Shown here: positions 19,504-59,153 of the stretch, piece after piece
Numbering within the stretch: the stretch's first letter is position 1
Layout: the number at the start of each line of letters is the position of its first letter
Assembly: GCA_007118565.1 (NCBI GenBank)
Contig: SKRI01000014.1
Location: forward strand, 1 to 64,000
From: Gemmatimonadota bacterium
GTDB taxonomy: Bacteria > Gemmatimonadota > Gemmatimonadetes > Longimicrobiales > Longimicrobiaceae
DNA: 64,000 bases
Direction of reading: 5' to 3'
Program-made: the position numbers and the translations under genes
The notes under the pieces: generated by a model
Told to the model about the DNA's origin: nothing
Databases searched by the model: none
What the model saw: the letters and a program-made list of their open reading frames with translations, nothing else

Positions 19504-19517
19504 GCTCGAGATCCGCT

Positions 19518-19546: not shown

Positions 19547-19599
19547 CATGGCGTGCTTATTGCTAAGAGGCGCGGCCCTCACGCGCCGCCGGAGAGCGC

Positions 19600-22901
<3,302 letters not shown>

Positions 22902-22909
<8 letters not shown>

Positions 22910-28842: not shown

Positions 28843-28871
28843 GGCCGTGTAAGAAAGCTTCAGCGGACGGA

Positions 28872-28889
28872 TCCCGGCGTCCGCCGGGA
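28872..28889 (+). terminator. GC-rich hairpin after rpoN
   Basis: TCCCGGC (28872-28878) pairs with GCCGGGA (28883-28889) around a GTCC loop, 30 nt after the rpoN stop. A short pyrimidine tract (CTCTATTT) follows about 5 nt later. It is a plausible but imperfect terminator. Confidence 0.45.
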
Positions 28890-28899
28890 CCGCGCTCTA

Positions 28900-28934
28900 T
28901 TTGCATCGGCACGATACGACTGTGCCGGTGCAAA
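28900..28934 (+). promoter_or_regulatory. 13-bp inverted repeat in the rpoN downstream gap
   Basis: TTTGCATCGGCAC (28900-28912) and GTGCCGGTGCAAA (28922-28934) pair across a 9-nt loop with one T-G wobble. Smaller GGGGC-TTC-GCCCC and CCC-TTC-GGG hairpins follow up to about 28980. The 207-nt gap holds no gene. The element could be part of the terminator set, an operator for the following glycosyltransferase gene or a structured leader. Confidence 0.4.
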
Positions 28935-29049
28935 CGGAGCCTCCTCGGGGCTTCGCCCCTGCGGGGTCTCCGCCCTTCGGGTCACGATCGCTTCCGCCGA
29001 CGCCGTGACCGCGCCGTGCTTCGGCAGCCCGCCACGTCACACCCTCCCG

Positions 29050-30072: not shown

Positions 30073-30088
30073 GGGGATCGCCCCGAGC

Positions 30089-30757
30089 TCAGCCGCGTGC
30101 GCAGACGAAGGCGAGCTGATAGGTCCAGCGCAGGGGGAGGAGGCGCCAGGCGACTCGCAGGGCGATGCGCTGGATCGCCGTCGGAACCCTCTTGCTGTAC
30201 CAGGGCTCGGGGCGTGCCGCGAGTACGGAGAGCCCGTTTTGCTCGAGCAGCGCTCGCCAACCTTCCAGGGTGAGCATCAGCTCCGACGCCTTTCGCTGCT
30301 CCGTCCCGTTCCAGCCGGGAAGCCACCATCCCGCGAAGGCGCGATTGGGAACGACGACGAGTGCGCGGCCGTCGGGGCGGAGAACGCGGTGAATCTCCCG
30401 GGCACCTGCCTCGGGATCCACGAAATGCTCCAGGCTACCGAGGCAGGTCACGACATGGAAGGCTTCCCGGCGAAACGGCAGCGCCTCTCCGGCCCCTATC
30501 CCGAGCGGAACGGAGGAAAGGCGGGATCGTGCAAGGTCGAGAGCCGGCTGAACCAGATCCACCCCGACGGTGGAGAGTCCACTCGCTTCGGCTTCGCGGA
30601 GGAGAAAGCCCTCTCCGCACCCGATGTCGAGCATCCGGGATCCGGCAGGAGGAAAGGGACGAAGGAGGTCGAGATAGAGTCGGTAGTCTCTGAGCTCGCC
30701 GGGCGGGTTTCGGTACCGCGACCGATAGAACTGGCCGAGTCGGAGGTGATCGTTCAC
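30089..30757 (-). CDS. Class I SAM-dependent methyltransferase
   Basis: 222 residues; a Methyltransf_11-type Rossmann fold. The SAM-binding motif MLDIGCGEGFLL is at about residues 42-53, the acidic loop VGVDL follows, and a post-motif LGSLEHFVDPEAGAREIHRVLRPDGRALVVVP matches the family. The substrate is unknown. It is convergent with the glycosyltransferase to its left, with only 16 nt between stops, and lies downstream of greA on the same strand. The neighbourhood of glycan genes suggests a sugar or lipid-linked substrate, but that is inference. Confidence 0.8.
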   Translation of the reverse strand: MNDHLRLGQFYRSRYRNPPGELRDYRLYLDLLRPFPPAGSRMLDIGCGEGFLLREAEASGLSTVGVDLVQPALDLARSRLSSVPLGIGAGEALPFRREAFHVVTCLGSLEHFVDPEAGAREIHRVLRPDGRALVVVPNRAFAGWWLPGWNGTEQRKASELMLTLEGWRALLEQNGLSVLAARPEPWYSKRVPTAIQRIALRVAWRLLPLRWTYQLAFVCARG

Positions 30758-30773
30758 CAGCCGCGGAAACCGC

Positions 30774-31256
30774 TCACCCCTTCTCCCCGACCATCTCGGG
30801 CAGCGTAACCAGCTCCACCACCTTCAGCGTGCGCTCGCCCCGGGGAAGGCTGAGGGTCGCCTCCTCCCCCACCTTCTTTCCCAGCAGGGCACGACCGATG
30901 GGGGAAGCCATGGAGATTTGTCCGCTGTCGACGTCGATGTCGTCGCCGAAGACCAGGGCATATGTATCCCGATCGCCCGTCTTCGCGTCCTCCACCGTCA
31001 CGCGCGATCCGAAGCCCACACGATCGGCGGGGATGTGCTCGGGATCGATCGCCGAGAGCTCACCCAGGCGCCGCGTCAGGTGTCCGAGACGAGCCTGGAC
31101 GAACTGCTGCCGTTCGAGCGCGGCCTTGTACTCCGAGTTCTCCCGCAGATCGCCGTGCTCGACCGCCGTCTGGATGACCTTTGGTAGGGTGACGTTCAGC
31201 TCGCGCGACAGGCGCTCGATCTCTTCGCCAAGCTTCGTCTTCAGCTCTTCCAGCAT
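30774..31256 (-). CDS. greA: Transcription elongation factor GreA
   Basis: Rescues backtracked RNA polymerase by stimulating transcript cleavage. It has 160 residues: an N-terminal coiled coil (LKTKLGEEIERLSREL...) with the conserved acidic tip HGDLRENSEYKAA, and a C-terminal FKBP-like domain ending SLPRGERTLKVVELV. Length is normal. It has its own likely promoter (31275-31302). The ATG has no evident Shine-Dalgarno sequence and the predicted leader is about 12 nt. Confidence 0.95.
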   Translation of the reverse strand: MLEELKTKLGEEIERLSRELNVTLPKVIQTAVEHGDLRENSEYKAALERQQFVQARLGHLTRRLGELSAIDPEHIPADRVGFGSRVTVEDAKTGDRDTYALVFGDDIDVDSGQISMASPIGRALLGKKVGEEATLSLPRGERTLKVVELVTLPEMVGEKG

Positions 31257-31274
31257 TCGTCGGGAGTCGCTCTC

Positions 31275-31302
31275 GTGATAAGGATTCGAAACGACCGGTC
31301 AA
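31275..31302 (-). promoter_or_regulatory. Probable greA promoter
   Basis: On the minus strand TTGACC (31302-31297, 5 of 6) and TATCAC (31280-31275, 4 of 6) are separated by 16 nt. They sit in the gap between the flippase-like gene and greA, with the start expected near 31268. Confidence 0.5.
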
Positions 31303-31346
31303 GATAGGCCCGGCAGGCCGTCTTGGACAGCATCGCGCGTGCCCGT

Positions 31347-32288
31347 TTACGGATTCGGCGGGCGGGAGCGGCGCAGCAGGAAGAGAGCCGGAACGAGCTC
31401 GGCCACGACGGTCCAGACGCGTGCGGCCACGGCCAGCGCCACGGCTACGGGAAGGGGGAAGAGGAGGGAGAGGAGCGCGGCCAGCGCTCCCTCCTTGGCA
31501 CCGAGCCCGGCCGGTGCCACGAATACCAGGTATCCTGCGAGGAAGGCGGCGGCATTCGCTGCGACGAGCAGCGGGAGGGCGGCAATGCCGACAGGGGCGA
31601 GCGCCTGGACCATGAGGTAGAAGGAAACGCCGAGCACGACCCATCCGATCAGCGACATGCCGAGGAGCACGGCTCCGTCCCGCCAGCTCCCCTCCCATTC
31701 GGCCACCGGGCGCCGGGCAACGCGCTGGAACAGGCCGTTCGCCAGATGGATGACGCGCGGATGAACGGCGACCAGGAGCAGCGGGATCAGGGCGGGTGCC
31801 CACGCCGCGGCTCCCGGCAGGTCGAGGTGCGCCGGAAGGATCGCCAGGCAGACTGCTGTCGCGGCCACGAGGTTCACCCCGGTATGCACGAGGAGGGAGC
31901 TCACCACGGTGAGTCGGGAGAGTCCCGTTTCGGCGCCGAGCTGTGCGGCACCCACGAACTGCCAGACCTTGCCCGGTATGTAGCGACCCAGATTGGAGAG
32001 AAACCAGGTCCGGCAGAGGGGCCGCCATGCCGTCCGCACTCCGAAGCGGAGGAGAACCATCCGCCATATCCACACCCCCCACAGGAAGCTCACGACGAGC
32101 GCGGCCAGTGAGCCCAGGAGGATCAGGGGGCGAACCTCCCAGTCGAAGGCGAGGAGGGAGTCGACATTGCGCGCGAGCGCCGCCGCAAGGAAGCCGAATG
32201 CCGCGAGGAGGAAGAGGACCGTCGCCGCCGTCCACCACCGGGAGCGACGCGGCGCCAGCTCCTCAGACGTCGGGATCGCGTCTGCCAC
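31347..32288 (-). CDS. Flippase-like membrane protein (LPG synthase TM family)
   Basis: 313 residues with about eight hydrophobic helices. It matches the UPF0104/lysylphosphatidylglycerol_synthase_TM fold: the LSNLGRYIPGKVWQF motif at about residue 98 and the PAGLGAKEGALAALLS motif near residue 262 are characteristic. The aminoacyl-transferase domain of MprF is absent. Stand-alone members are proposed lipid or glycolipid flippases. Its start overlaps the end of the YfhO-like gene by 26 nt, so the two are probably co-expressed in export of a lipid-linked glycan. Confidence 0.82.
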   Translation of the reverse strand: MADAIPTSEELAPRRSRWWTAATVLFLLAAFGFLAAALARNVDSLLAFDWEVRPLILLGSLAALVVSFLWGVWIWRMVLLRFGVRTAWRPLCRTWFLSNLGRYIPGKVWQFVGAAQLGAETGLSRLTVVSSLLVHTGVNLVAATAVCLAILPAHLDLPGAAAWAPALIPLLLVAVHPRVIHLANGLFQRVARRPVAEWEGSWRDGAVLLGMSLIGWVVLGVSFYLMVQALAPVGIAALPLLVAANAAAFLAGYLVFVAPAGLGAKEGALAALLSLLFPLPVAVALAVAARVWTVVAELVPALFLLRRSRPPNP

Positions 32289-34689
32289 GGCGGAATGCGA
32301 AGAGAAGCCAGCCGCCGTACCCGACGAGGAGAAGCAGGAGAATCCCGTAGATCCAGAGACCGATGGTCACGGAGGCGGGGCGGAACTCGAAGCGGACCTC
32401 AGAAGCTCCCTCCGGTACCTCCACCGCCCGGAATGTGTGGTTGGCCTGAAGGATCTCGGCAGGCTGTCCGTCGACGGTAGCCTCCCACCCCGGATAGTAG
32501 TTGTCCGCCAATACCAGCAGCGAAGGCGCCCCCGGCTCGACGCGAACCACCACCTCGTCAGGGTCATGACGCACGATCTCGGCAAGCCCGACGCCGAGCG
32601 CGGGCTCGGCGACGGTCAGAAGGGTGGGCTGGTCGTAGAGCACGACCTCCCGCGAGGGATCGAAATCCTCCGCCCTCATCACCTCGAGCGCGCCGTCCGG
32701 CTCGGTGGCCACGCGGAAGCCGTCGACCAGATAGGCGCGGGGAAGGGCGATCTCGTTTCTGTACACATACGCCGACCCCCGGTGGATCTCGGTGAGGAAG
32801 GGGAGCTCGATTGGCTGCGCCGAGACGAGATAGCGGACATTCCCCGCAGCCAGGAATGACGGGTGCTGGCCGACGTTCCGGAAGTCGGTGTACGCGGTAC
32901 CGTCCGTTCCCAGGAACTCGTTGTACCGCTGGAGCTGGTTTCCATGCTCCCCGCCGAGGAGCTCGATGTCGTAGAGCGTCGGGTAGTTCGTCTGCGGAAG
33001 GCCGGGGAGATACCAGACGCGAGCGGGACGATCGGGAACGGCACGCAGAACCTGAACGACGTCGTCTGGGGCGAAGTACCGGTCCGGGTGCTCGACCGTC
33101 TCCACGAATCGGCTCCCGAAGCTCCAGAGATCAACGAAGATGACCGCCGTCAGCGCCACGGCCATGCTTCGGCGGGCGAGACGACCGTAGAGGTGCGCGA
33201 CGATCAGAGCTCCGGCCACCCCGCCCAGGACGACGAGGCGCCACATGCCTGCCACGAAGTTCTGGTAGTTTGCGAGATACGCCTGCACGGCGCGAGCGTC
33301 GTCGGCGATCCTCCCCGGGACTTCGCCCGGCCCGGCCGGCGGGGTCAGGCTGGCCCAGGCAGCCACCAGCAGCGCCACGCCCACCGCGCCCCCGAGCGTC
33401 CAGAGGATGGCGCGTGCCGGCCCCTCGGCAGACGTGTCGGAGGCATGCATCCGATCGGCGACGTCCTGAATGCGGGAGAAGGCTAGTCCCGCCAGCACCG
33501 TCGCCGAGATCACGAAGAGGTAGAAGGCGATGGAGGGCGCCCGGAACTGCTGCGTTCCCGGTAGGATTTCGTAGAAAATCCGGTAGATCGGAGTGTATCC
33601 CCCGAAGGAGATGAGGAGCGCGAGCGTCCCCAGACCGATCCAGAGCCAGACCCGCCGATCGCCTCGGAGAACTACGAAGGCGCAGACGAGCAGGAGCAGC
33701 GCCCACACTCCCATGTACTCCGCGTGCAGCTTGAAGGGGTTGTCCCCCCAGTAGGCGCGGCCCCCGACGTTCATCCCCACATAGTCCGGCACGGCGATCC
33801 CCACCAGCTCCATCGGCGGCATGGACCAGGAGACGGAGTACTCGTAGCCGCGGCCACCCTCCATTCCGCGGGGCGAGTGCTCCACATAGGAAAGGAAGGG
33901 TAAAAAGTTCACCGCGGCCAGTCCGAAGCCCAACCCCAGGGTGAGCGCGCCGCCTCCGACCCTCATCGCCCAGCTGCGCCGATCCGGGATCCTCGCCCGG
34001 AAGGCGAAGAGGGCGTAAATACCGAGGATGCCCCCGGCCAGGAGCAGGTAGTAGTTGCTCTGGATCTGGAAGGAGAGAAGCGCCATGCCTAGAATGGCAC
34101 CTCCCAGGACGAACCAGCGCATCACGCCGGTTCGGACGCCGCGGTGCAGGGAGAAGAAGAAGGCCGGCGCGAGTGCTGCCACGATCATCCGCCCGTCGTG
34201 GCCCGCGTAGACGCTGGACAGCAGGATGGCCGTCAGCATGTAGCTCACGCCCGCGAGATAGGAGGCGGTGCGACGCGCGCCCATCTCCCGGACCAGGTAG
34301 AACATCCCCGTTCCCGCGGCAAAGAGGTGCAGGGAGAAAATCCAGGGGAGGATCGCGTGCGTCGGCAGGAGCGCCCGCAGCGCGAGCATCGGCGGATAGA
34401 AGGTGCTCCCCGGATTGGCGTAGTGGGGAAGCCCGCCGTAGAGAAAGGGGTTCCAGAGCGGGAGCTCCCCCGCGGCGAACCGGTCGGACACGAACTCGTG
34501 GGAAAAGTAGCCGCCAGCCAGGTAGTCCGTGCCGAAGAGATGCACCGCCGGGTTGAGCGCCGGGAGCATCATGGCGATCGCCATCCCCAGATACGAGAGG
34601 ATCAGGTAGCGATCGCCGATCGTGGGCTCCTCCCGAAGCTCGGACCGGGAGTGTTTGGTGGCGGAACGACGCCGGGTCGCTCGATTCAT
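32263..34689 (-). CDS. YfhO-like polytopic membrane protein
   Basis: 808 residues. A short basic N-tail, about 11-12 membrane helices through residue ~490, a soluble beta-rich domain (about 500-775), then a final helix before an Arg-rich end. The LWNPFLYGGLPHYANPG loop after the first helix and the DNYYPGWEATVDGQPAEI sequence near the end are typical of the YfhO family of GT-C-like proteins. Members such as B. subtilis YfhO are implicated in glycosylation of surface polymers. The substrate here is unknown; adjacency to a flippase and glycosyltransferases fits. Confidence 0.82.
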   Translation of the reverse strand: MNRATRRRSATKHSRSELREEPTIGDRYLILSYLGMAIAMMLPALNPAVHLFGTDYLAGGYFSHEFVSDRFAAGELPLWNPFLYGGLPHYANPGSTFYPPMLALRALLPTHAILPWIFSLHLFAAGTGMFYLVREMGARRTASYLAGVSYMLTAILLSSVYAGHDGRMIVAALAPAFFFSLHRGVRTGVMRWFVLGGAILGMALLSFQIQSNYYLLLAGGILGIYALFAFRARIPDRRSWAMRVGGGALTLGLGFGLAAVNFLPFLSYVEHSPRGMEGGRGYEYSVSWSMPPMELVGIAVPDYVGMNVGGRAYWGDNPFKLHAEYMGVWALLLLVCAFVVLRGDRRVWLWIGLGTLALLISFGGYTPIYRIFYEILPGTQQFRAPSIAFYLFVISATVLAGLAFSRIQDVADRMHASDTSAEGPARAILWTLGGAVGVALLVAAWASLTPPAGPGEVPGRIADDARAVQAYLANYQNFVAGMWRLVVLGGVAGALIVAHLYGRLARRSMAVALTAVIFVDLWSFGSRFVETVEHPDRYFAPDDVVQVLRAVPDRPARVWYLPGLPQTNYPTLYDIELLGGEHGNQLQRYNEFLGTDGTAYTDFRNVGQHPSFLAAGNVRYLVSAQPIELPFLTEIHRGSAYVYRNEIALPRAYLVDGFRVATEPDGALEVMRAEDFDPSREVVLYDQPTLLTVAEPALGVGLAEIVRHDPDEVVVRVEPGAPSLLVLADNYYPGWEATVDGQPAEILQANHTFRAVEVPEGASEVRFEFRPASVTIGLWIYGILLLLLVGYGGWLLFAFRRGRRDPDV

Positions 34690-34710
34690 CGTGCGGAAAG
34701 GATCGTCACG

Positions 34711-35832
34711 TCAGGATTCGTTGGACGACACGACATCCCGGAGGAAGTCGAGGTGCTCGTCTGCGATGGCATCCCAGGAGAAGCGTCTCCCTGCCTCCTC
34801 CCGCCCGGCCAGGGCCCGCTGCTCCCGGCCGGCCGGATCGTCGAGGACTTCTTCGACGGCCCCCACGAGCGCGTCTCGATCGCCGGGCGGGACGAAGAGG
34901 GCATGCTCTCCCGCGACCTCGGGAAGCGATCCAGCGGTGCTCGCAACCAGCGGCGCGCCCGCCGCCATCGCCTCCGCGGCCACCATCCCCCAACCCTCCA
35001 TGCGCGAGGGCATGACGACCGCTGCGGCCGTCGCCAGGAGCGCGCGCTTCTCCGCTTCCTCGACCGCGCCGAGGAGGCGGATCCGCTCGGCAGCCGGAGA
35101 GCGAGAGACCATCTCCCCGAGACGCTCCGCGTCCTTTCCCCGGCCGGCGATCCGCAGCTCCACCTCGGGCCTCCCTGTAGCGAGCCGCGAGAACGCCTCG
35201 ATCAGGACATCCAACCCCTTGTGGAAGAGATCGAGCCGGCCCAGATAGAGGAGGAACGGAGGCGATTCAATCGCCCGCTCGGCTTCGAATAGCGCGGAGT
35301 CGACCGCATTACCGATCAAGCGGACCTCGGTTCCGGTCCCCACACGCGCTCGGACCGCCTCCAAGGTATGTCGGGAGTCGGCGGAGATCCATCGGAAGTT
35401 GTTCAGGCGCCGGGCCTCGCTCCGGTCGAGCAGGCCTCCCAGCAGACGGCCCCAACGGTCCCGTGCCTCCGTCCCGGTCACATGGTGGACGACGGCGACC
35501 ACCGGAGCGGCCGCAGGCCGCGGCAGGCGAATCGGCGTATAGGCGGAGAAGTCGACCACGGCGATATCGTGCCGCCCCTGGGCAAGGAGCCGTTCGGCTG
35601 CGCGGCTGTAGCTCCAGCGGCTGAGAGGGTAGGGCTTGCGGCGGCCGATGAAGCGGGTCAGGAAGCCCGGTGTCCAGACGTCCCGCGCACCGGGAAAGGC
35701 GCCGCATACCATCTCGACTTCGGCCTCCCCGCGCGCCGCAAGCCGGCGGTTGATCTCGCGTGCCCGAATCGCGCCTCCTCCGCCCACCCACGGGTTGTCC
35801 GGATGGTCGTACAGGAGATGGAGGATCCTCAC
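34711..35832 (-). CDS. Family 4 glycosyltransferase
   Basis: 373 residues of GT-B fold: a glycine-rich acceptor loop WVGGGGAIR near the N-terminus, LLYLGRLDLFHKGLDVLIEA in the middle and the retaining-transferase motif EGWGMVAAEAMAAGAPLVAS with its two glutamates. The GTG start at 35832 overlaps the methyltransferase stop (GTGA). The longer open frame upstream is out of frame with that methyltransferase and not protein-like. Sugar donor and acceptor are unknown; a role in surface glycan or glycolipid assembly is inferred. Confidence 0.85.
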   Translation of the reverse strand: MRILHLLYDHPDNPWVGGGGAIRAREINRRLAARGEAEVEMVCGAFPGARDVWTPGFLTRFIGRRKPYPLSRWSYSRAAERLLAQGRHDIAVVDFSAYTPIRLPRPAAAPVVAVVHHVTGTEARDRWGRLLGGLLDRSEARRLNNFRWISADSRHTLEAVRARVGTGTEVRLIGNAVDSALFEAERAIESPPFLLYLGRLDLFHKGLDVLIEAFSRLATGRPEVELRIAGRGKDAERLGEMVSRSPAAERIRLLGAVEEAEKRALLATAAAVVMPSRMEGWGMVAAEAMAAGAPLVASTAGSLPEVAGEHALFVPPGDRDALVGAVEEVLDDPAGREQRALAGREEAGRRFSWDAIADEHLDFLRDVVSSNES

Positions 35833-36470
35833 CGCGGATCCACGCTGACCAGGACGCTGTAGCTTCCCCCCCAGCGACGCCGGAGCAGCGAGTGCTTGAG
35901 CGCTTCGAGATCGAGGCGGTACCCGCGGGCACGGACCCGATAGGGTGCGGGCGAGATGGCCTCCGCCACGATCCGCTGCCATGCGTCGGGGCTCATCAGT
36001 CGCTCGTTCCCCACGTCCTGTCGGGGGTACGCGGCGGAGGGAACGCTGAAGACCACCGACCGAGCCACGCGCAGCTGCTCTCGCAGCAGCGCGGAAATCC
36101 GCTCGTCGTCGAAGTGCTCCATGAGCCCCTGCGAGAGGGCTACCCCGAAGGTGCCCTCGGGAAAAGGAAGATGGAAGGCATCGGCCCGCACCGGCCGGGC
36201 CCGAGGTCCGAAGCGGCGCAGGTTCTCGCGCGCCACCGCCAGGATGCGAACATCGTTGTCCACGGTGGTGACGGACACACCCGTCCGGCTGAGGAGCGCA
36301 CTCTGGGCACCGCTCCCGACACCGACCTCCAGCACTCCCGCGGCCCCCGCCCGGCGCCGTGTCTCCAGGACGAGATCGGCGTGTATGGCGGCACGTTTCA
36401 GGAATGTGCCGCGCCTCATCGGTTCGACCTCGAAACGGTCCCAGTCTGTCGGATCGGCAGCCTTTGTCAT
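35829..36470 (-). CDS. SAM-dependent methyltransferase between two GT4 genes
   Basis: 213 residues. The SAM loop VLEVGVGSGAQSALL lies at about residues 45-59, with VDNDV as the ribose-binding acid and an LPFPEGTFGVALSQGLMEHF motif. The ATG at 36470 is chosen because it forms an ATGA overlap with the stop of the upstream glycosyltransferase; a start at 36527 would lie inside that gene. Both ends overlap GT4 genes by 4 nt, which implies a joint pathway, possibly methylation of a glycan. Confidence 0.8.
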   Translation of the reverse strand: MTKAADPTDWDRFEVEPMRRGTFLKRAAIHADLVLETRRRAGAAGVLEVGVGSGAQSALLSRTGVSVTTVDNDVRILAVARENLRRFGPRARPVRADAFHLPFPEGTFGVALSQGLMEHFDDERISALLREQLRVARSVVFSVPSAAYPRQDVGNERLMSPDAWQRIVAEAISPAPYRVRARGYRLDLEALKHSLLRRRWGGSYSVLVSVDPR

Positions 36471-37663
36471 CGTCGCCGCGTGATCGAGTCGTACACTCCG
36501 ACGAGGTCGGCGACCACCCGATCCCATCCGAAACGCGTCTCGACATCACGCGAGCCACGTGCCCCCATCTCCTTTGCTACGGTGGGGTTGGCCACAATCG
36601 TCTCGATCGCGTTCGCAAGGGCTCCCGGGTCGTCGGGCGGAACGAGCAGCCCCGTCTCTTCGTGTCGGACAACGTCCGGGATTCCCCCGTCTCTCGATCC
36701 GATGACCGGTCGCCCGTGCGCGAGCGCCTCGATCAGGACGACCCCGAGCCCTTCGACATCTCCCTTCTCGTCGCGAACCGCGGGGAGCACGACCAAATCC
36801 GATGCGATGAGCGCTTCGCGGAGCTCCGCATCCGGGACGAAACCGCGGAAGCGGACCTCCCGCCCAGGGGGGAGCTCGGCGGATGCACGCTCCAGCGCTA
36901 TGCGCTCAGGGCCGTCGCCGATCACCGTGAGCCCCAAGGCCATGTCCTCGGGAAGCAAGGCGAGCGCCTCGATCAGTCGATGAACCCCCTTGCGGCGCAC
37001 CAGCCGCCCCACGAAGAGCAGCTCGATACGCTCTCTTCCGGCAGGGAAGGGGGGCGGGGGCGGCTCCCGTAGCTCGACTGCCGCTCCGAACGGGATCCTC
37101 GCCACCGGACGATCCCAGACCTCCCGAACCATTTCCGCCGTGTAGGAGGAAATTGCCGTCACGGCATCGGCCGTTCGGATCGCCTGGCGCAGGAAGGGGA
37201 GAAGGAAGGGAAACCGGTTCCGCGTCCAGGTGACCTCCACGCCGAAGAAGCTGCAGACGAGCGGCACGCCGGAGGCGCGGCGGGCGGCCATACCGATCAC
37301 CGCATGGGGAACCGGCCAGAGGACGTGGATCACGTCGAAACGGCCGGAGCGGGCCAGACGCGCGGCGGTAAGCGCGCCCGACGCGACGTACCCGGGGACG
37401 AGCGCGCCGTACGCCGGCTTCTCCCCGATCCGATCCGGTGCGGTCTGCTCGTGGGTGAGGCGCTCCCAGGACGAAGGCGCGTAACGGAAGCGATGAACCC
37501 GGACGTCGTCCACGACATGGTCGGGCCCGCCGCGGTACGCGGGCGCCAGGACCTCGGCCTCCACGCCCGCGTTCTTCAGGTGCCCGAGGAGCGTGCCGAG
37601 CCAGGGGGTGATCACATCACCCGCGAACCTGGGATAGGCGCTCGCCACGAAGAGGACCCTCAT
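36467..37663 (-). CDS. Family 4 glycosyltransferase
   Basis: 398 residues. The N-terminal acceptor domain starts VLFVASAYPRFAGDVITPW, and the donor domain carries LLFVGRLVRRKGVHRLIEAL, EGLGVVLIEALAHGRPVIGS and GIPDVVRHEETGLLVPPDD, the hallmark of GT4 enzymes. The ATG at 37663 is chosen over one 18 codons upstream because the family begins exactly at MRVLFVAS. It is the first gene of a three-gene overlapping set transcribed leftwards and divergent from the mannosyltransferase gene. Confidence 0.87.
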   Translation of the reverse strand: MRVLFVASAYPRFAGDVITPWLGTLLGHLKNAGVEAEVLAPAYRGGPDHVVDDVRVHRFRYAPSSWERLTHEQTAPDRIGEKPAYGALVPGYVASGALTAARLARSGRFDVIHVLWPVPHAVIGMAARRASGVPLVCSFFGVEVTWTRNRFPFLLPFLRQAIRTADAVTAISSYTAEMVREVWDRPVARIPFGAAVELREPPPPPFPAGRERIELLFVGRLVRRKGVHRLIEALALLPEDMALGLTVIGDGPERIALERASAELPPGREVRFRGFVPDAELREALIASDLVVLPAVRDEKGDVEGLGVVLIEALAHGRPVIGSRDGGIPDVVRHEETGLLVPPDDPGALANAIETIVANPTVAKEMGARGSRDVETRFGWDRVVADLVGVYDSITRRR

Positions 37664-37791
37664 ACCCTCGTCCGGAGGGAGTCCGGTCGGAGGCGGGGAC
37701 CGGCCTCCGGCGCGCACGACGGCGGGTTCGCAAGGGTCAGGGCGCTTGTTCGGCCTCGGGAGCGACGGTAAGTTCGGAACCCGGCAAAGGT

Positions 37792-37811
37792 ACCGGGTGG
37801 CGCCACCCGGT
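37792..37811. promoter_or_regulatory. 20-bp perfect palindrome between divergent genes
   Basis: ACCGGGTGGC followed by its exact reverse complement, 19 bp before the ATG of the plus-strand mannosyltransferase gene and 129 bp from the divergent GT4 start. A dimeric regulator's operator or a strong RNA hairpin are both possible. The 166-nt gap holds no gene. Confidence 0.5.
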
Positions 37812-37829
37812 TCAAGCTACCCGAACCTC

Positions 37830-38561
37830 ATGGCAGTGTTGGAGTCCGCGCTCGTCATCATCCCGACCTACAACGAGAAGGACAATCTTCCACGGATCGT
37901 GCCGGCCGTGCTGGCCCAGGATCCACGGTTCGACGTCCTCATCGTCGACGACGGATCCCCGGACGGAACGGGGGCCATCGCGGACGAGCTGGCCCGGGGG
38001 AGCGACCGCGTATTCGCCCTGCATCGGGACAGGAAGCGGGGGCTCGGGACCGCCTACATCACCGGGTTCAGGTGGGGGCTCGCGCGCGACTACGACATCT
38101 TCTTCGAGATGGATGCCGACTTCTCGCACGATCCCGGCAACCTTCCGGCGTTCGTCACGAAGATCGAGGAGGGGTACGACGTCGTGCTCGGCTCCCGCTA
38201 CCTCCACGGGAGAGTCACGGTGGTGAACTGGCCCATCAGCCGCCTGATCCTGAGCTACGCCGCCAACATGTATGCCCGCCGGGTCACGGGTCTGCCGGTG
38301 GCGGACGCGACGGGTGGTTTCAAGTGCTTCCGTCGCGAGGTGCTGGAGGCGCTGGCGCTCAAGGAGGTGGAGTCGAACGGGTATGCGTTTCAGATCGAGC
38401 TGAGCTTCCGTGCCTGGAAGAAGGGATTCCGGATCGCCGAGATCCCGATCACCTTCGTCGATCGCGATGTGGGCGAGAGCAAGATGTCGAAGCCGATCGT
38501 GGCGGAGGCGGTCTGGAGGGTCTGGCGACTGCGGCTGCTCTCGCTGCGAGGTCGGCTCTAG
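37830..38561 (+). CDS. Polyprenol-monophosphomannose synthase (DPM1-like)
   Basis: 243 residues, a GT2 enzyme without membrane helices: VIIPTYNEKDNL, LIVDDGSPDGT and the metal-binding EMDADFSHDP, then GSRYLHG and the ESNGYAFQIE segment. This set and the length are typical of bacterial polyprenol-phosphate mannose synthases, which transfer a sugar from a nucleotide to polyprenyl phosphate. Such lipid-linked sugars serve GT-C transferases, to which the YfhO-like protein is related. The ATG at 37830 starts just before the family N-terminus; an upstream start at 37746 is possible but the region is not protein-like. Confidence 0.88.
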   Translation: MAVLESALVIIPTYNEKDNLPRIVPAVLAQDPRFDVLIVDDGSPDGTGAIADELARGSDRVFALHRDRKRGLGTAYITGFRWGLARDYDIFFEMDADFSHDPGNLPAFVTKIEEGYDVVLGSRYLHGRVTVVNWPISRLILSYAANMYARRVTGLPVADATGGFKCFRREVLEALALKEVESNGYAFQIELSFRAWKKGFRIAEIPITFVDRDVGESKMSKPIVAEAVWRVWRLRLLSLRGRL

Positions 38562-38667
38562 GTCGAACCGCGCCGTCGCTCCAGCCATCGACGGAGCGAG
38601 CCGGAGGGGGAGGAGAAGAGAGCAAACGGTGGAAAGAGTGGAAAAACCAAGGGTTATCAACAGATGA

Positions 38668-38695
38668 AGTTTACATAATATATATTATACGAAGT
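38668..38695 (-). other. Chromosome dimer-resolution site dif (XerC/XerD target)
   Basis: A 28-bp site in an AT-rich island. Read on the minus strand it has a XerC-type arm ACTTCGTATAA, a 6-bp centre TATATA and a XerD-type arm TTATGTAAACT. From memory this differs from the B. subtilis dif site at only 2 of 28 positions, and it shares the TTATGT XerD core with E. coli dif. It is intergenic (278-nt gap between the mannosyltransferase and rhomboid genes). Gene orientation converges on it from both sides, and a Xer recombinase is encoded at 16402-17316. The rest of the gap shows no gene. Confidence 0.88.
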
Positions 38696-38839
38696 CACTT
38701 TGAAGGTGGGGACGAGCGTTCCTCGATTCAGAGGATTGCTAGCTCACGGCTGAACCATCAGCGCCCGGCCGTCAGCCGCAGCGCCCGCTCCGGTGCGGTC
38801 GAAGGCGTGAAGGCGTCTCTGCCTGCCGATCGAGACCGA

Positions 38840-39697: not shown

Positions 39698-39869
39698 ACC
39701 GAGCCTGGAGCCGTGTGAAGTGTGCCGGAGCGCCGACCGTCTGCGCTGCATCTACCCTGCCCGTGGGCCCTCCGGAACTCACGAGGCACCGCGACTTCGA
39801 GGGGGTTCTCCTTCTAGAACACCCGGCCGGTGAAGCCGGTTCCGGTTCATCCGGGTCGGGAAACGAGGG

Positions 39870-40874
39870 TCAGCGCCCGTTCGCCGATCGAGCGATCCGG
39901 TCGCAGAGCTCGACGAACTCGACCCCGGCGGCCTTCGCCGCCTTCGGAAGTAGGCTCGTTGCCGTCATCCCCGGGAGGGTGTTCGCCTCCAGACAGAACA
40001 GCCTTTCCCGCGAGAGGATGAAGTCTATGCGCGCGTAGTCGCGCAGCTTGAGGACCCGGAAAGCTCGCAGCGCGAATGCCTTGAGCTCGGCCGTGGTCTC
40101 CACGTCCAGCGGTGCCGGACAGAGATACTCGGTCTGTCCGGAGGTGTACTTCGCCTTGTAATCGTAGAGGCCCCCGCCCTTCGGCCGGATCTCCACCGGC
40201 GGGAAGGTCTCATCTCCCAGAACGCTCACCGTGAGCTCCCGCCCCTTGGCGAAGCTCTCGACCAAGATCTCGTCGTACCGCTCTCGCTCCTGGGCGATGA
40301 TCTGCGCGAACTGCTCCTCCGACTCAACCACGTGCAGCCCGACGCTCGAGCCCTCGGCCGACGGCTTCACGACGCACGGATATCCGACGAACTCGCGGAT
40401 GGCCTCCGGATCGTAATGAAAGTGCGGCGCCCGGATGGTGCGCCACGGCAGCGTGGGAATCTCGGCGTCACGCAGGAGTCGCTTCGAGGTATCCTTGTCC
40501 ATGGCAATGGCGGAGCCCAGCACGCCCGATCCCGTGTACGGGACTCCCAGAAGGTCGAGGAGAGCCTGCACCGTTCCGTCCTCCCCGGCACCGCCGTGCA
40601 GCGCCATGAAGGCGACGTCCGCATCCAGGAGCTGTGGCACGGTGCCGAGCTCGGAGGGGGGGAGATGGGCGTCGTCGCCCTGCTCGGGAGGGTCGGAGTG
40701 CACCCCCTCGGGAAGCAACTCGGCTTCGTTCTCTGGGGAGATGAACCCCCGCGCCGTATCGATGGCGTGCGCCTCGTGCCCGGCCTCGCGCAGCGCTTTC
40801 AGAACTGCGAGGCCGGAGGCGAGGGAGATCTCGCGCTCGGAGCTGCTTCCCCCCAACAGAACGGCGATCTTCAT
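39870..40874 (-). CDS. ddl: D-alanine--D-alanine ligase
   Basis: ATP-grasp ligase making the D-Ala-D-Ala end of peptidoglycan stem peptides. It has 334 residues: KIAVLLGGSSSEREISL at the N-terminus, the ALHGGAGEDGTVQ motif, VVKPSAEGSSVG in the ATP-binding lid and LEANTLPGMTATSLLP near the C-terminus. The conserved Ser in GSSVG and Tyr in GGLYDYKAKY are present, as expected for D-Ala (not D-lactate) specificity. It lies 79 nt after uvrC with a hairpin in between (40900-40924). Confidence 0.96.
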   Translation of the reverse strand: MKIAVLLGGSSSEREISLASGLAVLKALREAGHEAHAIDTARGFISPENEAELLPEGVHSDPPEQGDDAHLPPSELGTVPQLLDADVAFMALHGGAGEDGTVQALLDLLGVPYTGSGVLGSAIAMDKDTSKRLLRDAEIPTLPWRTIRAPHFHYDPEAIREFVGYPCVVKPSAEGSSVGLHVVESEEQFAQIIAQERERYDEILVESFAKGRELTVSVLGDETFPPVEIRPKGGGLYDYKAKYTSGQTEYLCPAPLDVETTAELKAFALRAFRVLKLRDYARIDFILSRERLFCLEANTLPGMTATSLLPKAAKAAGVEFVELCDRIARSANGR

Positions 40875-40899
40875 GGGAAATGGACGAGAGGATGAATGG

Positions 40900-40924
40900 A
40901 TGGCGCGCGTGAGGGGCGCGCCAT
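40900..40924 (-). terminator. Hairpin between uvrC and ddl
   Basis: ATGGCGCGC (40900-40908) pairs with GCGCGCCAT (40916-40924) across a 7-nt loop. On the minus strand it lies 30 nt after uvrC and before ddl. No T-run follows, so strong intrinsic termination is unlikely. Confidence 0.35.
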
Positions 40925-40953
40925 GCAGAAACCGTACGCGGAGGATACCGCTC

Positions 40954-42810
40954 TCAGGCGGCGCTCGAATCGCCATCCAGGGTGGCCAGCCGCTCCGCGA
41001 TGACCCGGGCCAGCGCGGGGCCGATCCCCTGCACCGCCGCAATCTGATCCACCTCGGCCGCGCGAATCGAGCGCACCGACCCGAAGGAGCGGAGGAGGGC
41101 CCGCTGGCGTGCGGGGCCGACGCCCGGAATGTCAGCGAGCGCCGACCGGACGGTTCGCTTCGACCGCAGGCTCCGGTTGTATCCGACGGCAAAGCGGTGC
41201 GCCTCGTCCCGGAGGCGCTGCAGGAGCTGCAGGGCGGCTGAGCGGCGGGAGAGGTGAATGGCCCCCTCGCGGCCGGGCACGAACACCTCCTCCTCGCGCT
41301 TGGCCAGTCCAACGACCGCCTGCTGCGCGTACTCCTGCTCCTCCAGTGCCCGCCTTGCGGCCGAGAGCTGCCCCTTGCCTCCGTCGATCACCAGGAGATC
41401 CGGAAGGGGAAGCTCCTCCTCGATCCTGCGGCGCACGTAGCGTGTAACCACCTCGTGCATCGAGGCGTAGTCATCATTCCCCCAATCGCCCCGGACACGG
41501 AACTTCCGGTACTCGGCCTTGTTCGGTTTGCCGTCCTCGAACACCACACACGAGCCCACCGTCTCCGTCCCGCTGGTGTGGGAGATGTCGAAGCAGGCGA
41601 TGACCCTTGGTACCGCCTGCAGCTCCAGCTCCTCCTGCAGCTCGTAAAGCGCGTCCGGCGCCCGCGTCCGCGCCGTTCTCTCCATGAGGACCTTTTCCTC
41701 CAACAGATGCTGCGCGTTGCGCGTGGCGAGCTCCACCAGCCGCGCCTTCTCCCCGCGCTGCGGCACATGCGTGCGAACCGCGCGCCCCGACCGCTCGCGG
41801 AGGAGCGTCTCCAGCGTCTCCCGGTCCTCGAACTCCGACGGGAAGAGGACCTCCGGCGGAAGATTCTCGCCGAGCTTCTCCACCTGCACCGCATAGTGGC
41901 GCGTGGCCACGGCAGAGAGGATCTCCCCGTCCGCCTGGTCCTCGAGGCCGTCGAGGAAGACCGTCTCACGCCCGAGGAGCTTCCCCTCCCGGATCCGCAT
42001 CACCACCAGGCAGCCACCCGCGCCGTCGCGCGCGAGCCCGATGACGTCCCGGTCATCTCCCCGCACGTCCACGACCTTCTGGCGCGATTCGAGCGCGTCG
42101 AGCTTGCCGAGCGCGTCCCGGATGCGGCCCGCCTCCTCGAAGTCGAGCGCCGCGGCGGCGGCCTGCATCCGGTCCCGCAGGCGCGCGGCCACCCGCCGCG
42201 TCCGTCCCTCGAGGAGCTCGACCACCTCGTCGGTCATGGCCCGATACTCGTTCTCGGATTGGAGATCGACGCACGGCGCCTTGCACCGTCCGATGTGATA
42301 GTCCAGACAGGGGCGATCCGGGCGCTCCTCCGGAAGCCGATACCGGCAGGAGCGGACGGTGTACACCTTCTTGATCACGTCGAGCGCCTGCCGCATCCGG
42401 CCCACGTCCGTAAACGGACCGAAGTACCTGCCGCCGTCCGGGATCAGCCGGCGGGTGACGAAGACCCGCGGGAACGGCTCCTGGATGGTGACCTTGATGT
42501 ACGGGTAGCTCTTGTCGTCGCGGAGGTTGACGTTGAAGCGGGGCTGGTGCTCCTTGATGAGCGTGTTCTCCAGCATGAGCGCCTCGGGCTCCGAATCGGT
42601 GACGATGGTGTCCACGTCCGCGATCCGGGGCACCATGTGCCGCGTCTTGAGGGAGTCCGCCGCCTGCGCCCCGAAGTAGGAGCGTACACGGCTCCGCAGT
42701 GACTTCGCCTTCCCCACGTAGAGGATCTCGCCGTCCGCGTCCTTCATCAGGTAGACGCCGGGACCGGTCGGGAGGTGGCGAAGCTTGCGCTGTAGCGGAT
42801 CGGGCGACAT
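40954..42810 (-). CDS. uvrC: Excinuclease ABC subunit C
   Basis: Makes both incisions in nucleotide excision repair. It has 618 residues: a GIY-YIG nuclease (about 10-95, GPGVYLMKDADGEILYVGKA), a conserved CxxYHIGRC region, a UVR motif (about 195-235), an RNase H-like endonuclease with FDISHTSGTETVGS and LLVIDGGKGQ, and a tandem HhH domain (DIPGVGPARQRALLRSFG). The ATG at 42810 fits the family N-terminus; an upstream start at 42846 adds 12 residues. Confidence 0.96.
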   Translation of the reverse strand: MSPDPLQRKLRHLPTGPGVYLMKDADGEILYVGKAKSLRSRVRSYFGAQAADSLKTRHMVPRIADVDTIVTDSEPEALMLENTLIKEHQPRFNVNLRDDKSYPYIKVTIQEPFPRVFVTRRLIPDGGRYFGPFTDVGRMRQALDVIKKVYTVRSCRYRLPEERPDRPCLDYHIGRCKAPCVDLQSENEYRAMTDEVVELLEGRTRRVAARLRDRMQAAAAALDFEEAGRIRDALGKLDALESRQKVVDVRGDDRDVIGLARDGAGGCLVVMRIREGKLLGRETVFLDGLEDQADGEILSAVATRHYAVQVEKLGENLPPEVLFPSEFEDRETLETLLRERSGRAVRTHVPQRGEKARLVELATRNAQHLLEEKVLMERTARTRAPDALYELQEELELQAVPRVIACFDISHTSGTETVGSCVVFEDGKPNKAEYRKFRVRGDWGNDDYASMHEVVTRYVRRRIEEELPLPDLLVIDGGKGQLSAARRALEEQEYAQQAVVGLAKREEEVFVPGREGAIHLSRRSAALQLLQRLRDEAHRFAVGYNRSLRSKRTVRSALADIPGVGPARQRALLRSFGSVRSIRAAEVDQIAAVQGIGPALARVIAERLATLDGDSSAA

Positions 42811-42896
42811 GGAGAGGCGACTTCGGGAGACGTTCGGTCGAACCATGGTACCGCCCGCGCGGGACCACGTTCCTGTCCCCTACGAGCCCTTCTCCG

Positions 42897-45647
42897 CTAG
42901 CTCCCGCTCCGGTCGCGGATCATGCGGACGACCCACTTCTCCAACTCGACGGCGAAGAAGACGACTGCCGCCACGCCCAGCACCCAGAGCCAGTGGTCAC
43001 CTTCCAGCGGCGCCGTCCCGAACCAGAGGTGGAAGACCGGGAGATAGGTGAATCCGAGCTGGAAGACGATGAGGAGCCCGGCGGTGAGCAGCGCCATGCG
43101 GTTTCCGATCAGCCCCTCGATCGAGAGTGACCGCCTGATGATGTAGCGGCTATTGAAGAGGTAGGCGAGCTGCCCAGCCGCGAGGGCATTCACCGCGAGC
43201 GTTCGCGACACCTCCAGCGGGGCGCCCAGGGCGAGCGACCGGAAGAAGACGAGTATCGCGAGCGCCGCGATGATGCCGGACACGAAGGTGATCCGCCAGA
43301 GGAGGTGCCCGGTGATAATCGAGGCGTCCGGATCCCGAGGAGGCCGCCGCATGATGCCCGGCTCCGCGCTCTCGAAGGCGAGAGCGAGCGCGAGGGTGAC
43401 GGCGGTGATCAGGTTGATCCAGAGGATCTGGACCGGTGTCAGCGGCAGCTCTGCAAAGGCGAAGACGACCGCGGCGATCACCACCAGGGCCTGAGCGCCG
43501 TTCGTGGGGAGGATGAAGAGGATGGTCTTGCGGAGGTTGTCGTAGATGGTACGCCCCTCCTCCACCGCGCGCTCGATGGTGACGAAGTTGTCGTCCGCCA
43601 GCACCATCTCCGCCGCCTCCTTCGATGCCTCCGAGCCTTTGATTCCCATGGCCACGCCCACGTCGGCGCGCTTGAGCGCCGGTGCGTCGTTCACCCCGTC
43701 ACCGGTCATGGCCACGACCTCCCCCAGCTTCTGGAGCGCCTGGACGATCCGGATCTTGTGCTCCGGGCTCGAGCGGGCGAAGACGTCGTGATCCACCACG
43801 GCCCGCTCCAGCTCATCGTCGCTCATTGCTTCCAGCTGCTTCCCCGCAATCGCCTCCCGATCCTCCCCGATCCCCAGCTGCCGGCCGATGGCCTGCGCGG
43901 TGGCCAGGTGGTCGCCGGTGATCATCTTCACCCGGATACCGGCTTCCTGGCACTCGCGGACGGCATCCTCCGCCTCGGCCCGCGGCGGGTCGATCATGCC
44001 GACCATCCCGAGAAGTGTAAGCCCGCCGAGCTGCTCCGGATCCAGCTCGTCCCGGTCGGTGGGCTTCATCGCCAGCGCTAGGACGCGCTGGCCGCGATCC
44101 GCCATCCCGTGGACCGTCTCGATCCATCCGTCACGATCGATCTCCTCGTCGCTCCCCTCATGTCCGCGTTGCCGATCACAGAGGTCGAGGACCGTCTCGG
44201 GAGCTCCCTTGAGGTGGATGTAACGGCCCTCGGGGCCCTCATCGAGCGTGGCCATGAAGCGGTGCTCGGAGGCGAACGGGACGACGTCCTCGCGGGTGTA
44301 TTCCTCCTTACCCCCCTTTCCCCAGCCGGCCTTCCGTCCGAGGACGACCATCGCCCCCTCGGTGGGGTCGCCGTGCACCGTCCAGTCGTCTCCGTTCTCC
44401 TCCGGCCGGACCTCGGCGTCGCTGCACAGGAATCCGCACCGGAGCAGCTCGGACAGGATCGGCTCCTCACCGGGATCGATCTCCTCTTCGTCTTCCGACA
44501 GGAACGATCCCTCCGGCCGGTATCCGTCCCCGGTCACCGAGTAGCGTCCGGCCGGGGTCGTGATCTCGCGGGCCATCATCTCGTTCCGGGTGAGGGTGCC
44601 CGTCTTGTCCGTGCAGATGACGGTCACCGATCCCAGCGTCTCGACGGCCGGAAGGCGACGGATGATGGCGTTGCGTCCGGCCATCCGCTGGACGCCGAGC
44701 GCCAGGGTGATGGTGATGATGGCGGGGAGCCCCTCCGGGATGGCGGCCACGGCCAGGGAGACGGCGATCATGAAGAGCTCCGCGACGGTGTACTCGCGGA
44801 AGAGGTACCCGAAGGCGAAGACGGCGCCGCTGAAGAGAAGGATGGTGACCGCCAGCGTCCGGCCGAAGCGACCAATGGCGCGGAGGAGGGGGGTGGTGAG
44901 CGTCTCCACCCCGGCCACCATGGTGCCGATCTTCCCGACCTCGGTGTCGGCGCCGGTGGCCACGACCACCCCCTTCCCTCCTCCCCTGGTCACCATCGTG
45001 CCGGAGAAGAGCATGCTCGATCGATCTCCGACCCCAGAGTCCTCCTCCACCGGATCCGGGCTCTTCTCCACCGGCTCGGACTCACCGGTGAGCGGGGCCT
45101 CCTCGACCCGGACGTTCTTGGCCGCGATCAGACGGATGTCCGCGGGGACGCGGTCACCCGACTCGAAGAGAATGATGTCGCCGGGAACTACCTCGGCGGC
45201 CGGGATCGAGGTTCGATCGCCTCCGCGGAGGACGGTGGCCCTGAGGGAGAGCATCTCGCGGATGGCCTCCAGCGCCCGCTCCGCCTTCCCCTCCTGGATG
45301 AAGCCGATGGCGGCGTTGACGACCACCACCGCCAGGATTACCCAGGTGTCGATCCACTCTCCCAGGAGCGCGGTCACGACCGCGGCGGCGATCAGCAGGT
45401 AGATCAGTACGTCGTGGAACTGGCGGAAGAACCGGACGACGGGCCCGGCCGACTTCTCCCCGGGGAGCTCGTTCGGCCCCTCCGCCTCGAGGCGCCGCTT
45501 CGCCTCCTCCGCGGAAAGCCCCTTCTCCTCCGTCTCCAGCTCGGCCAGAACATGATCGACCTCCCGGCTGTGCCAGGCAGGCGCACACGGTCCGTCTCGC
45601 TCCTCGACCTCCTTCCCTGTGGACGGTATGGATCCCATCTCCCTCAA
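42897..45647 (-). CDS. P-type (P2-like) cation-transporting ATPase
   Basis: 916 residues, with an N-terminal cation-ATPase domain (about 25-95), the actuator loop with LTGESEPVEKS, the phosphorylation motif CTDKTGTLTRNEM, KGAPETVLDLC in the nucleotide domain and MTGDGVNDAPALKRADVG. About ten membrane helices are present. M4 has the PEGLP motif of Ca2+ and related pumps, but M5 reads PTNGAQAL and M6 reads NLITAVTLAL, so two acidic ligands of SERCA-type sites are replaced by Gln and Ala. The substrate is therefore uncertain. A possible start 3 codons further in (45638) is an alternative. Confidence 0.88.
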   Translation of the reverse strand: MREMGSIPSTGKEVEERDGPCAPAWHSREVDHVLAELETEEKGLSAEEAKRRLEAEGPNELPGEKSAGPVVRFFRQFHDVLIYLLIAAAVVTALLGEWIDTWVILAVVVVNAAIGFIQEGKAERALEAIREMLSLRATVLRGGDRTSIPAAEVVPGDIILFESGDRVPADIRLIAAKNVRVEEAPLTGESEPVEKSPDPVEEDSGVGDRSSMLFSGTMVTRGGGKGVVVATGADTEVGKIGTMVAGVETLTTPLLRAIGRFGRTLAVTILLFSGAVFAFGYLFREYTVAELFMIAVSLAVAAIPEGLPAIITITLALGVQRMAGRNAIIRRLPAVETLGSVTVICTDKTGTLTRNEMMAREITTPAGRYSVTGDGYRPEGSFLSEDEEEIDPGEEPILSELLRCGFLCSDAEVRPEENGDDWTVHGDPTEGAMVVLGRKAGWGKGGKEEYTREDVVPFASEHRFMATLDEGPEGRYIHLKGAPETVLDLCDRQRGHEGSDEEIDRDGWIETVHGMADRGQRVLALAMKPTDRDELDPEQLGGLTLLGMVGMIDPPRAEAEDAVRECQEAGIRVKMITGDHLATAQAIGRQLGIGEDREAIAGKQLEAMSDDELERAVVDHDVFARSSPEHKIRIVQALQKLGEVVAMTGDGVNDAPALKRADVGVAMGIKGSEASKEAAEMVLADDNFVTIERAVEEGRTIYDNLRKTILFILPTNGAQALVVIAAVVFAFAELPLTPVQILWINLITAVTLALALAFESAEPGIMRRPPRDPDASIITGHLLWRITFVSGIIAALAILVFFRSLALGAPLEVSRTLAVNALAAGQLAYLFNSRYIIRRSLSIEGLIGNRMALLTAGLLIVFQLGFTYLPVFHLWFGTAPLEGDHWLWVLGVAAVVFFAVELEKWVVRMIRDRSGS

Positions 45648-45724
45648 TCAGTTCCGGGCACTTCCGGGGCAATGGCGCGGTCGACCGGCAAATCGCCGGC
45701 CGCCGTCCGCGGGACTGGCCTGCC

Positions 45725-47485
45725 TCATCGCCCCGGGAGGAACCTGCGAGCGGTCTGTGGGATCCTGTTCAGCGTTCCGCGGGCCTCGGGGTTCCCCAGG
45801 GCGGCGGCGACCAGGTAGTAGACCACACCGAAGAGGCCGAGGATGACCACGGCCCGGAGCGTCGGCTGGAATTCCGGCAGGATTAGGCGCGCGCCCCAAG
45901 CGACGACGGCCGCGGCGGCGGCGGCGGCGAAGAGACGCAACAGCGGCGCTGCCCCGGCTCCGACCTTCCCCACCGAACCCCGGAGCTTCCGCCGCAGGAG
46001 GAACCACTCCACCCAGGCGGCGATCCCCGTCGCGGTCGACAACCCTACCGCGCCGAAGTACCAGATGGTGTCCCCGTCCTCGATCGTGAGCCACGAGAAT
46101 ACCCCCGGCCCCACCGTGAGCCCGAAGAGGGTGACGGACTCGAACTGGACCATCAGGGTGAAGCCGATCACCGCGGCGAGTGCGACCCGAACACCAGCGT
46201 ACACGGCGGGCGTCTTGGTGTCGCGGAGGGCAAAGAAGGTCGAGTTGAGGAGGCGGGTCGAGGTTGAGGCCATGAGGGCGAGGCCGTATCCAGCCAGCGT
46301 CGCGTAGACCAGGAGGGTCTGGGCGCGACCGAACTCCCCGGTCTGGTAGAGGGCGGCCACGATCACATCTCCCAGCGCCATGAAAGCGACGAAGGAGGCG
46401 ACGACGTAGAATGCGATGCGCTGCAGCCCGCGATTCGTCCGATCCTGCAGAAGGACCATGGTCTGACCACGTCGCCGCGACAGCTCGGGGAGCTCGGCAG
46501 CGGCGACGGACATGCCGAAGAGCGACACCGGGAGCATGTACAGGGTCTGGGCATAACCGATGGCAGCGACACCGCCGATGGCCAGGAGGCTGGCGAGCAC
46601 CATGTCCAGATAGCCGCTTACCTGGACGACACCCCGCCCCATGATGGCCGGTCCCGCATTGCGGACCACCTCGCGGACGTTCTCCATCTTCCGGCCGAGC
46701 GACAGGCGGATGCTCTTGTCCAGACGGAGAACCCAGGGAAGCTGAATGGCGAACTGCAAGCCCCCGCCTACGAGCGCTCCCCAGGCGAGCGCGACCACCA
46801 GGGCATCCATCGTCATTCCCGCCCCGAGGAAGAGCAGCGTTCCGATCATGGCACCGTTCCAGAGGACTGGCGCCACGTACGGGACGAAAAACTTGCGGTG
46901 GCTGTTCAGGACACCTAGCGACCATGCGGAGAGGACCAGCAGCCCCGTCATGGGGAAGAGGATGCGGACCACCGTGATGGTCAGCTCACGCCGCTCGCCC
47001 GTGAAGCCGGGGGTGAAGATGCTGACGATGAGCGGGGCCAGCAGCACGCCGAGCAGCGCAAGCGCGCCGGCGATGCAGAAGAGGAGGGCGAAGATTGCGC
47101 CCGCCACGCGGCCCGCCTCCTCTTCCCTCCCCTCCTCGAGCAGCTCCGAGTAGACCGGAATGAAAGAGGCCGAGAGCGTCCCCTCACCGAGGAGGTTCTG
47201 GAGCGCGTTCGGCATGCGCAGGCCGGCCCGAAAGACGTCCGCGTAGAGCGAGGTGCCGAAGAACTGCGCGAAGATCCGCTCCCGCACCAACCCGGAGATT
47301 CGGCTGAGGAGGATCCCGGCGCCGACGAGCGCCGAGGACCGGCCGCCCGAGTCCTCCTCCCCCTCCTTCGCGGTTCCCGGGGTTCCCTGCGGGGTGTCGG
47401 CGGAGGATTCCGGCTCGGGAACCGCCTCCGGCGGCGTCTCCTCGGGCGGTGCGCCGGAGGCGGGGGTGTGCTCCCCTTCCGTCAT
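45725..47485 (-). CDS. murJ: Lipid II flippase MurJ
   Basis: MOP-superfamily exporter that flips undecaprenyl-linked peptidoglycan precursors across the inner membrane. It has 586 residues with about 14 helices. The signature SRISGLVRERIFAQFFGTSLYADVFRAGLR-type first helix and loop, and NLLGEGTLSASFIPVYSELLEEG, are highly diagnostic. A Pro/Glu-rich hydrophilic N-terminal tail of about 45 residues precedes them, longer than usual. Its ATG overlaps the bshC stop (ATGA), so it sits at the end of the long lpx-containing transcript. Confidence 0.94.
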   Translation of the reverse strand: MTEGEHTPASGAPPEETPPEAVPEPESSADTPQGTPGTAKEGEEDSGGRSSALVGAGILLSRISGLVRERIFAQFFGTSLYADVFRAGLRMPNALQNLLGEGTLSASFIPVYSELLEEGREEEAGRVAGAIFALLFCIAGALALLGVLLAPLIVSIFTPGFTGERRELTITVVRILFPMTGLLVLSAWSLGVLNSHRKFFVPYVAPVLWNGAMIGTLLFLGAGMTMDALVVALAWGALVGGGLQFAIQLPWVLRLDKSIRLSLGRKMENVREVVRNAGPAIMGRGVVQVSGYLDMVLASLLAIGGVAAIGYAQTLYMLPVSLFGMSVAAAELPELSRRRGQTMVLLQDRTNRGLQRIAFYVVASFVAFMALGDVIVAALYQTGEFGRAQTLLVYATLAGYGLALMASTSTRLLNSTFFALRDTKTPAVYAGVRVALAAVIGFTLMVQFESVTLFGLTVGPGVFSWLTIEDGDTIWYFGAVGLSTATGIAAWVEWFLLRRKLRGSVGKVGAGAAPLLRLFAAAAAAAVVAWGARLILPEFQPTLRAVVILGLFGVVYYLVAAALGNPEARGTLNRIPQTARRFLPGR

Positions 47486-54785: not shown

Positions 54786-54801
54786 GTCATCTCCCAGCGC
54801 C

Positions 54802-59075: not shown

Positions 59076-59084
59076 CGGATGCAG

Positions 59085-59132: not shown

Positions 59133-59153
59133 TACGTAGCAGCCAGAACGGCG

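Follow-up and report, generated by a model that had tools for sequence, protein, structure and literature searches.

Does a 28-bp AT-rich block on a contig of a Gemmatimonadota bacterium act as the chromosomal dif site, and what could lead the recombination machinery to it? A dif site is the single spot where a cell resolves fused sister chromosomes, and an earlier note had proposed from the letters of the DNA that this block is such a site and marks the replication terminus. The window analyzed here covers the initial 64.0 kb of a contig of 67.8 kb (end at position 67784), which belongs to a 2.9-Mb draft genome that comprises 306 contigs and is 93.6% complete. The positions of all features are collected in Table 1.

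The 28-bp site and its counterparts in the phylum

The proposed order of XerC arm, TATATA centre and XerD arm was found exactly at positions 38668 to 38695 of the minus strand. The 28-mer has the anatomy of a dif, with two 11-bp arms showing partial dyad symmetry and a 6-bp centre between them. Using the reference sequences as printed in PMC3025954, we counted 2 mismatches out of 28 with the B. subtilis dif, which reproduces the number given in the earlier note, and 7 with the E. coli dif. The site is intergenic as proposed: it lies in a 278-bp gap bounded by the stop codons of a glycosyltransferase gene on the plus strand (38561) and of a rhomboid-protease gene on the minus strand (38840). 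The nearest relatives of the rhomboid protein, at 43-48% identity, come without exception from Gemmatimonadetes/Gemmatimonadota assemblies, which places the genome in this phylum. The claim that gene orientation converges on the site is correct for these two neighbours but not for several genes between about 30.1 and 37.7 kb, which run the opposite way.

Table 1 Features of the window and of the predicted dif site.
Feature	Position	Strand	Details
dif site, 28 bp	38668..38695	-	ACTTCGTATAATATATATTATGTAAACT; single copy in its own genome
XerC-binding arm (predicted)	38685..38695	-	ACTTCGTATAA; placed by homology to E. coli and B. subtilis dif
Central region, 6 bp	38679..38684	-	TATATA
XerD-binding arm (predicted)	38668..38678	-	TTATGTAAACT; contains the TTATGT core
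Intergenic gap holding dif	38562..38839		between two convergent genes
KOPS GGGNAGGG, left of dif	2162..37051	+	17 toward dif, 3 away; starts of those toward dif: 2162, 3022, 6429, 9136, 10468, 12831, 14717, 15915, 16933, 17029, 17034, 26700, 29760, 31449, 32740, 35627, 37044
KOPS GGGNAGGG, right of dif	39755..64000	-	11 in the window toward dif
xerD, tyrosine recombinase, 304 aa	16402..17316	+	TIGR02225 345.3 bits (cut-off 329.6)
Conserved block, XerD-arm side	4200..38561	+	glycosyltransferase (adjoining dif), rpoN, lptB, kdsD/kpsF-type isomerase, kdsC-type phosphatase, pyrG, trpG/pabA-type amidotransferase, xerD, fabF, fabG, sucD, sucC
uvrC, XerC-arm side	40954..42846	-	TIGR00194 601 bits

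To place the site among its counterparts we searched for dif-type 28-mers in the draft genome and in its relatives. Allowing up to 3 mismatches, the window 28-mer occurs once in the 306-contig draft, with no equal second copy; a looser dif pattern adds one weak match with 3 mismatches that lacks the XerD core. Matches with up to 3 mismatches to the exact 28-mer were present in 45 of 146 genomes (own genome included), one in each. The looser pattern was matched in 244 of 395 phylum genomes, nearly all of the matching relatives having one dif per genome, and a reversed control pattern had no match in any genome of either survey (146 and 395 genomes). The 151 phylum genomes with no match to the looser pattern are probably mostly divergent or incomplete. 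Across 69 related loci, nearly one per genus and picked with the search pattern, the window dif agrees with the most frequent base in each of the 28 columns, including the columns that the pattern leaves unconstrained. The C, G and ATAA of the XerC arm are invariant or nearly so and the TTATGT core of the XerD arm is the same in 69 out of 69 loci (partly through the search pattern), while the 6-bp centre is, along with the flanks, the portion that varies most across the phylum.

Since the inner part of the 28-mer is a simple AT palindrome, we considered whether the match could be fortuitous, an AT-rich palindrome that happens to lie between two genes. For 2 x 2.9 Mb at 67% GC, an independent-base model using base composition only predicts ~3e-10 28-mers within 2 mismatches of the B. 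subtilis dif, and shuffled windows gave 0 matches to the 20-bp core of that dif, in line with the earlier view that a chance match is very unlikely. Moreover the outer arm bases are conserved in the 69 loci, and distant families share both the site and its conserved surroundings. Conservation and uniqueness thus refute a chance palindrome, to which we give a negligible probability.

Strand composition and KOPS polarity around dif

GC skew changes sign at dif, from +0.028 on the left to -0.042 on the right. Computed on the window contig, cumulative GC skew forms a plateau at 30-40 kb. Its peak, at 34.8 kb, is 3.9 kb away from dif, and at dif itself the value is at most 3% below the maximum; the extremum looked for near 38.7 kb is thus present. 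Skew also falls across dif in 45 of the 54 related loci (from the set of 69) that have enough flank.

In the window contig, GGGNAGGG, which in E. coli is the FtsK-orienting polar sequence (KOPS), has 31 copies directed at dif and 4 directed away from it; the right side, up to the contig end, accounts for 14 and 1 (53571) of these. The best breakpoint of this polarity is a single 2.7-kb interval (37047-39758) with dif inside it. In 20000 strand shuffles the observed convergence was never reached, and GGGNAGGG ranked first for polarity among the 3109 octamers of the window that have the form XXXNXXXX and at least 15 copies. When 10 kb on either side of dif (dif itself left out) were pooled over the 69 related loci, which come from related genera and are therefore non-independent samples, GGGNAGGG was again first, this time of 9538 octamers, with 374 occurrences toward dif and 51 away. 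Taken locus by locus, 66 of the 69 lean toward dif and 0 lean away.

Such polarity could be a mere by-product of the G excess on the leading strand, unrelated to FtsK. Other G-rich octamers are indeed polar too (GGGNGGGG, 319 to 74; GGGNCGGG, 410 to 174), and the recognition-helix residues of the relatives' FtsK differ partly from those of E. coli FtsK. However, GGGNAGGG is the most polar of the 9538 octamers, with a bias of 0.88 against 0.70-0.81 in its G-rich sister octamers, and it still directs to dif by 47 to 13 in the 9 loci without a fall in GC skew across the site. It also exceeded the other GGGN[CGT]GGG octamers in a set of 19 genomes analyzed earlier (196 to 39 versus 537 to 260; Fisher p 1e-6). 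A by-product of skew is for these reasons unlikely, though it keeps a noticeable share of our doubt, and we favor the reading in which GGGNAGGG is used as a guidance signal for FtsK.

Searches of the draft genome (93.6% complete) for the motor and gamma domains of FtsK gave no match. Because 94 of 98 relatives encode an FtsK gamma domain, the gene is likely missing through an assembly gap, and true loss of FtsK was rejected on the same count. The gamma domains of the relatives match the solved KOPS-binding FtsK gamma structures 2ve8/2j5p. In E. coli FtsK, residues R1300, E1303 and E1306 matter for KOPS reading (PMC2680272); with this numbering carried over through the alignment, the relatives keep R1300, have Asp in place of E1303 and have Glu or His at E1306.

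The position of dif relative to dnaA was examined in the 8 genomes whose main chromosome is on one contig. In 7 of them (G022, G032, G042, G044, G162, G179 and G202, with a rounded chromosome length used for G179) dif lies 42-50% of the chromosome away from dnaA, for example 42% in the 4.64-Mb G162. The exception is the near-complete G045 (contig 1), in which the distance is only 16% of the chromosome, so that either its terminus is strongly off-centre or the contig is misassembled. The G045 dif nonetheless has convergent KOPS and a local drop in skew. Besides dnaA, nine of the Gemmatimonadota genomes searched (G162, G168, G179, G202, G213, G180, G196, G042 and G045) have an ORF of 587-814 aa with two DnaA-type domains in tandem.

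Skew, KOPS polarity and the phylum-wide gene order all place the replication terminus at dif, in agreement with the earlier proposal. The genome being a draft of 306 contigs, this call rests on strand-composition signals and on the relatives. It should be kept in mind that dif is the place of FtsK and Xer action and not necessarily the point where the forks meet.

Recombinases and the conserved neighbourhood of dif

The XerC/D-type recombinase that had been noticed 22 kb away is XerD, encoded 21-22 kb from dif and scoring above the TIGR02225 cut-off. Its alignment to E. coli XerD (1a0p) shows that the catalytic R, K, H-R, H and Y residues are kept. A second recombinase is encoded on contig 274 in a trmFO-xerC-hslV-hslU cluster, the identities of trmFO, hslV and hslU being read from translations. 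This protein scores 322.9 with the XerC profile TIGR02224, just below the curated 335.15, versus 288.0 with the XerD profile, and its location in the hslVU cluster supports its assignment as a predicted XerC. The genome therefore encodes both a cognate XerC and XerD.

On the XerD-arm side, the gene block listed in Table 1 is collinear in G162, G168, G022 and G076. The exception is its glycosyltransferase stretch beside dif (30-38 kb), which varies among genomes and breaks collinearity. On the XerC-arm side, uvrC is found on the same side of the terminus in G162, G168 and G022, and further genes are, like uvrC, common to G162 and G168. Of the 16 genomes with xerD and dif on one contig, 14 (own genome, G006, G013, G022, G032, G044, G072, G076, G162, G166, G168, G179, G202 and G207) carry xerD on the XerD-arm side at a distance of 17-46 kb, its transcription running toward dif; the two exceptions, G042 and G045, belong to one genus. 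Because the intervening genes are conserved in order too, we attribute this linkage to synteny of the whole block and did not accept xerD and dif as a selected pair. We did not find this block, with xerD 17-46 kb from dif, reported in the literature searched. The general trend in Kono et al. (PMC3025954) is for xerC to lie near dif and xerD near the origin. With xerD near dif, the phylum therefore departs from that trend.

The neighbourhood also bears on another explanation of the 28-mer, namely that it is the attachment site of a Xer-dependent integrated element (IMEX, phage or plasmid) and not the host dif. Elements of this kind do carry dif-like sites, and in 5 related genomes pairs of contigs end at dif, possibly through strain variation at the site. 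In the window, however, dif stands amid housekeeping genes whose order is conserved across families of the phylum, it has one copy and no second direct repeat, its sequence is that of the phylum majority, and both KOPS and GC skew switch at it. A second site and foreign genes were sought and none were found, so that the earlier statement that no integrated element is visible stands. The integrated-element explanation is thus largely refuted and we hold it to be very improbable. As to the five relatives (L190-L199: G264, G269, G273, G267 and G178), their two contigs end and overlap at dif by 122-175 bp with 94-100% identity. These ends may reflect strain variation or Xer-integrated elements; by a rough estimate, the five cases are only modestly above what random contig ends would give.

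Proposed mechanism and comparison with known systems

In all, the 28-mer is almost certainly the chromosomal dif of this Gemmatimonadota bacterium, as judged from sequence comparison and in keeping with the dimer-resolution explanation by XerC, XerD and FtsK. According to this explanation, each recombinase would bind one arm, XerC ACTTCGTATAA and XerD TTATGTAAACT. Once a dimer of joined sister chromosomes has formed, septal FtsK would load on the GGGNAGGG octamers and, guided by them from both sides, would move to dif and activate XerD. XerD first and then XerC would exchange strands between the two dif copies, resolving the dimer. We infer the binding, strand exchange, FtsK loading and cleavage order at dif.

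As a dif, the window site is ordinary and well supported, and a Gemmatimonadetes dif was already predicted in 2011 in the catalogue of the XerCD/dif family by Kono et al. (PMC3025954). That site comes from the same phylum and is of the same kind; it was predicted in one genome, whereas the present analysis adds hundreds of sites, KOPS polarity and gene context. The closest likeness to a well-known site is with the B. subtilis dif, which belongs to another phylum. The two share 26 of 28 bases, the arm-centre-arm layout and a single copy near the GC-skew switch, and both differing bases are in the XerC arm. The guidance motif of FtsK in Firmicutes differs from GGGNAGGG, B. subtilis having SRS motifs instead (PMC5357621).

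The likeness in guidance is to E. coli and Vibrio cholerae, whose KOPS is the same octamer GGGNAGGG, directed to dif and strongest near it. The difference is that here it occurs in Gemmatimonadota, that the recognition-helix residues are partly changed and that its reading by FtsK is predicted. We know of no study of FtsK guidance in Gemmatimonadota. In the literature searched, mostly outside subscription journals, Gemmatimonadetes, KOPS and FtsK are named together only in PMC3025954 and in a paper on vesicles. We found no report of E. coli-type KOPS polarity for this phylum, and it may thus be unreported. We consider it probable that Gemmatimonadota use the E. coli octamer to steer FtsK to dif, together with an anciently fixed terminus in which xerD is kept within 17-46 kb of dif, lying on the XerD-arm side and reading toward the site. 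If true, the E. coli KOPS code would be far older than the proteobacteria, or would have evolved repeatedly, and its polarity across Gemmatimonadota bears on the age and constraint of the FtsK guidance code. In practical terms, dif reliably marks the terminus in this draft genome, which comes from a phylum that is poorly cultured. Combined with the polarity of a single octamer, it allows the terminus to be found within one contig, also when GC skew is flat.

Finally, a link between a recombinase gene and its site is also a feature of the XerS/difSL system of streptococci and lactococci. There a single xerS is directly adjacent to the site (PMC5357621), whereas here a stretch of 17-46 kb with housekeeping genes separates xerD from dif, and XerC exists as a protein of its own.
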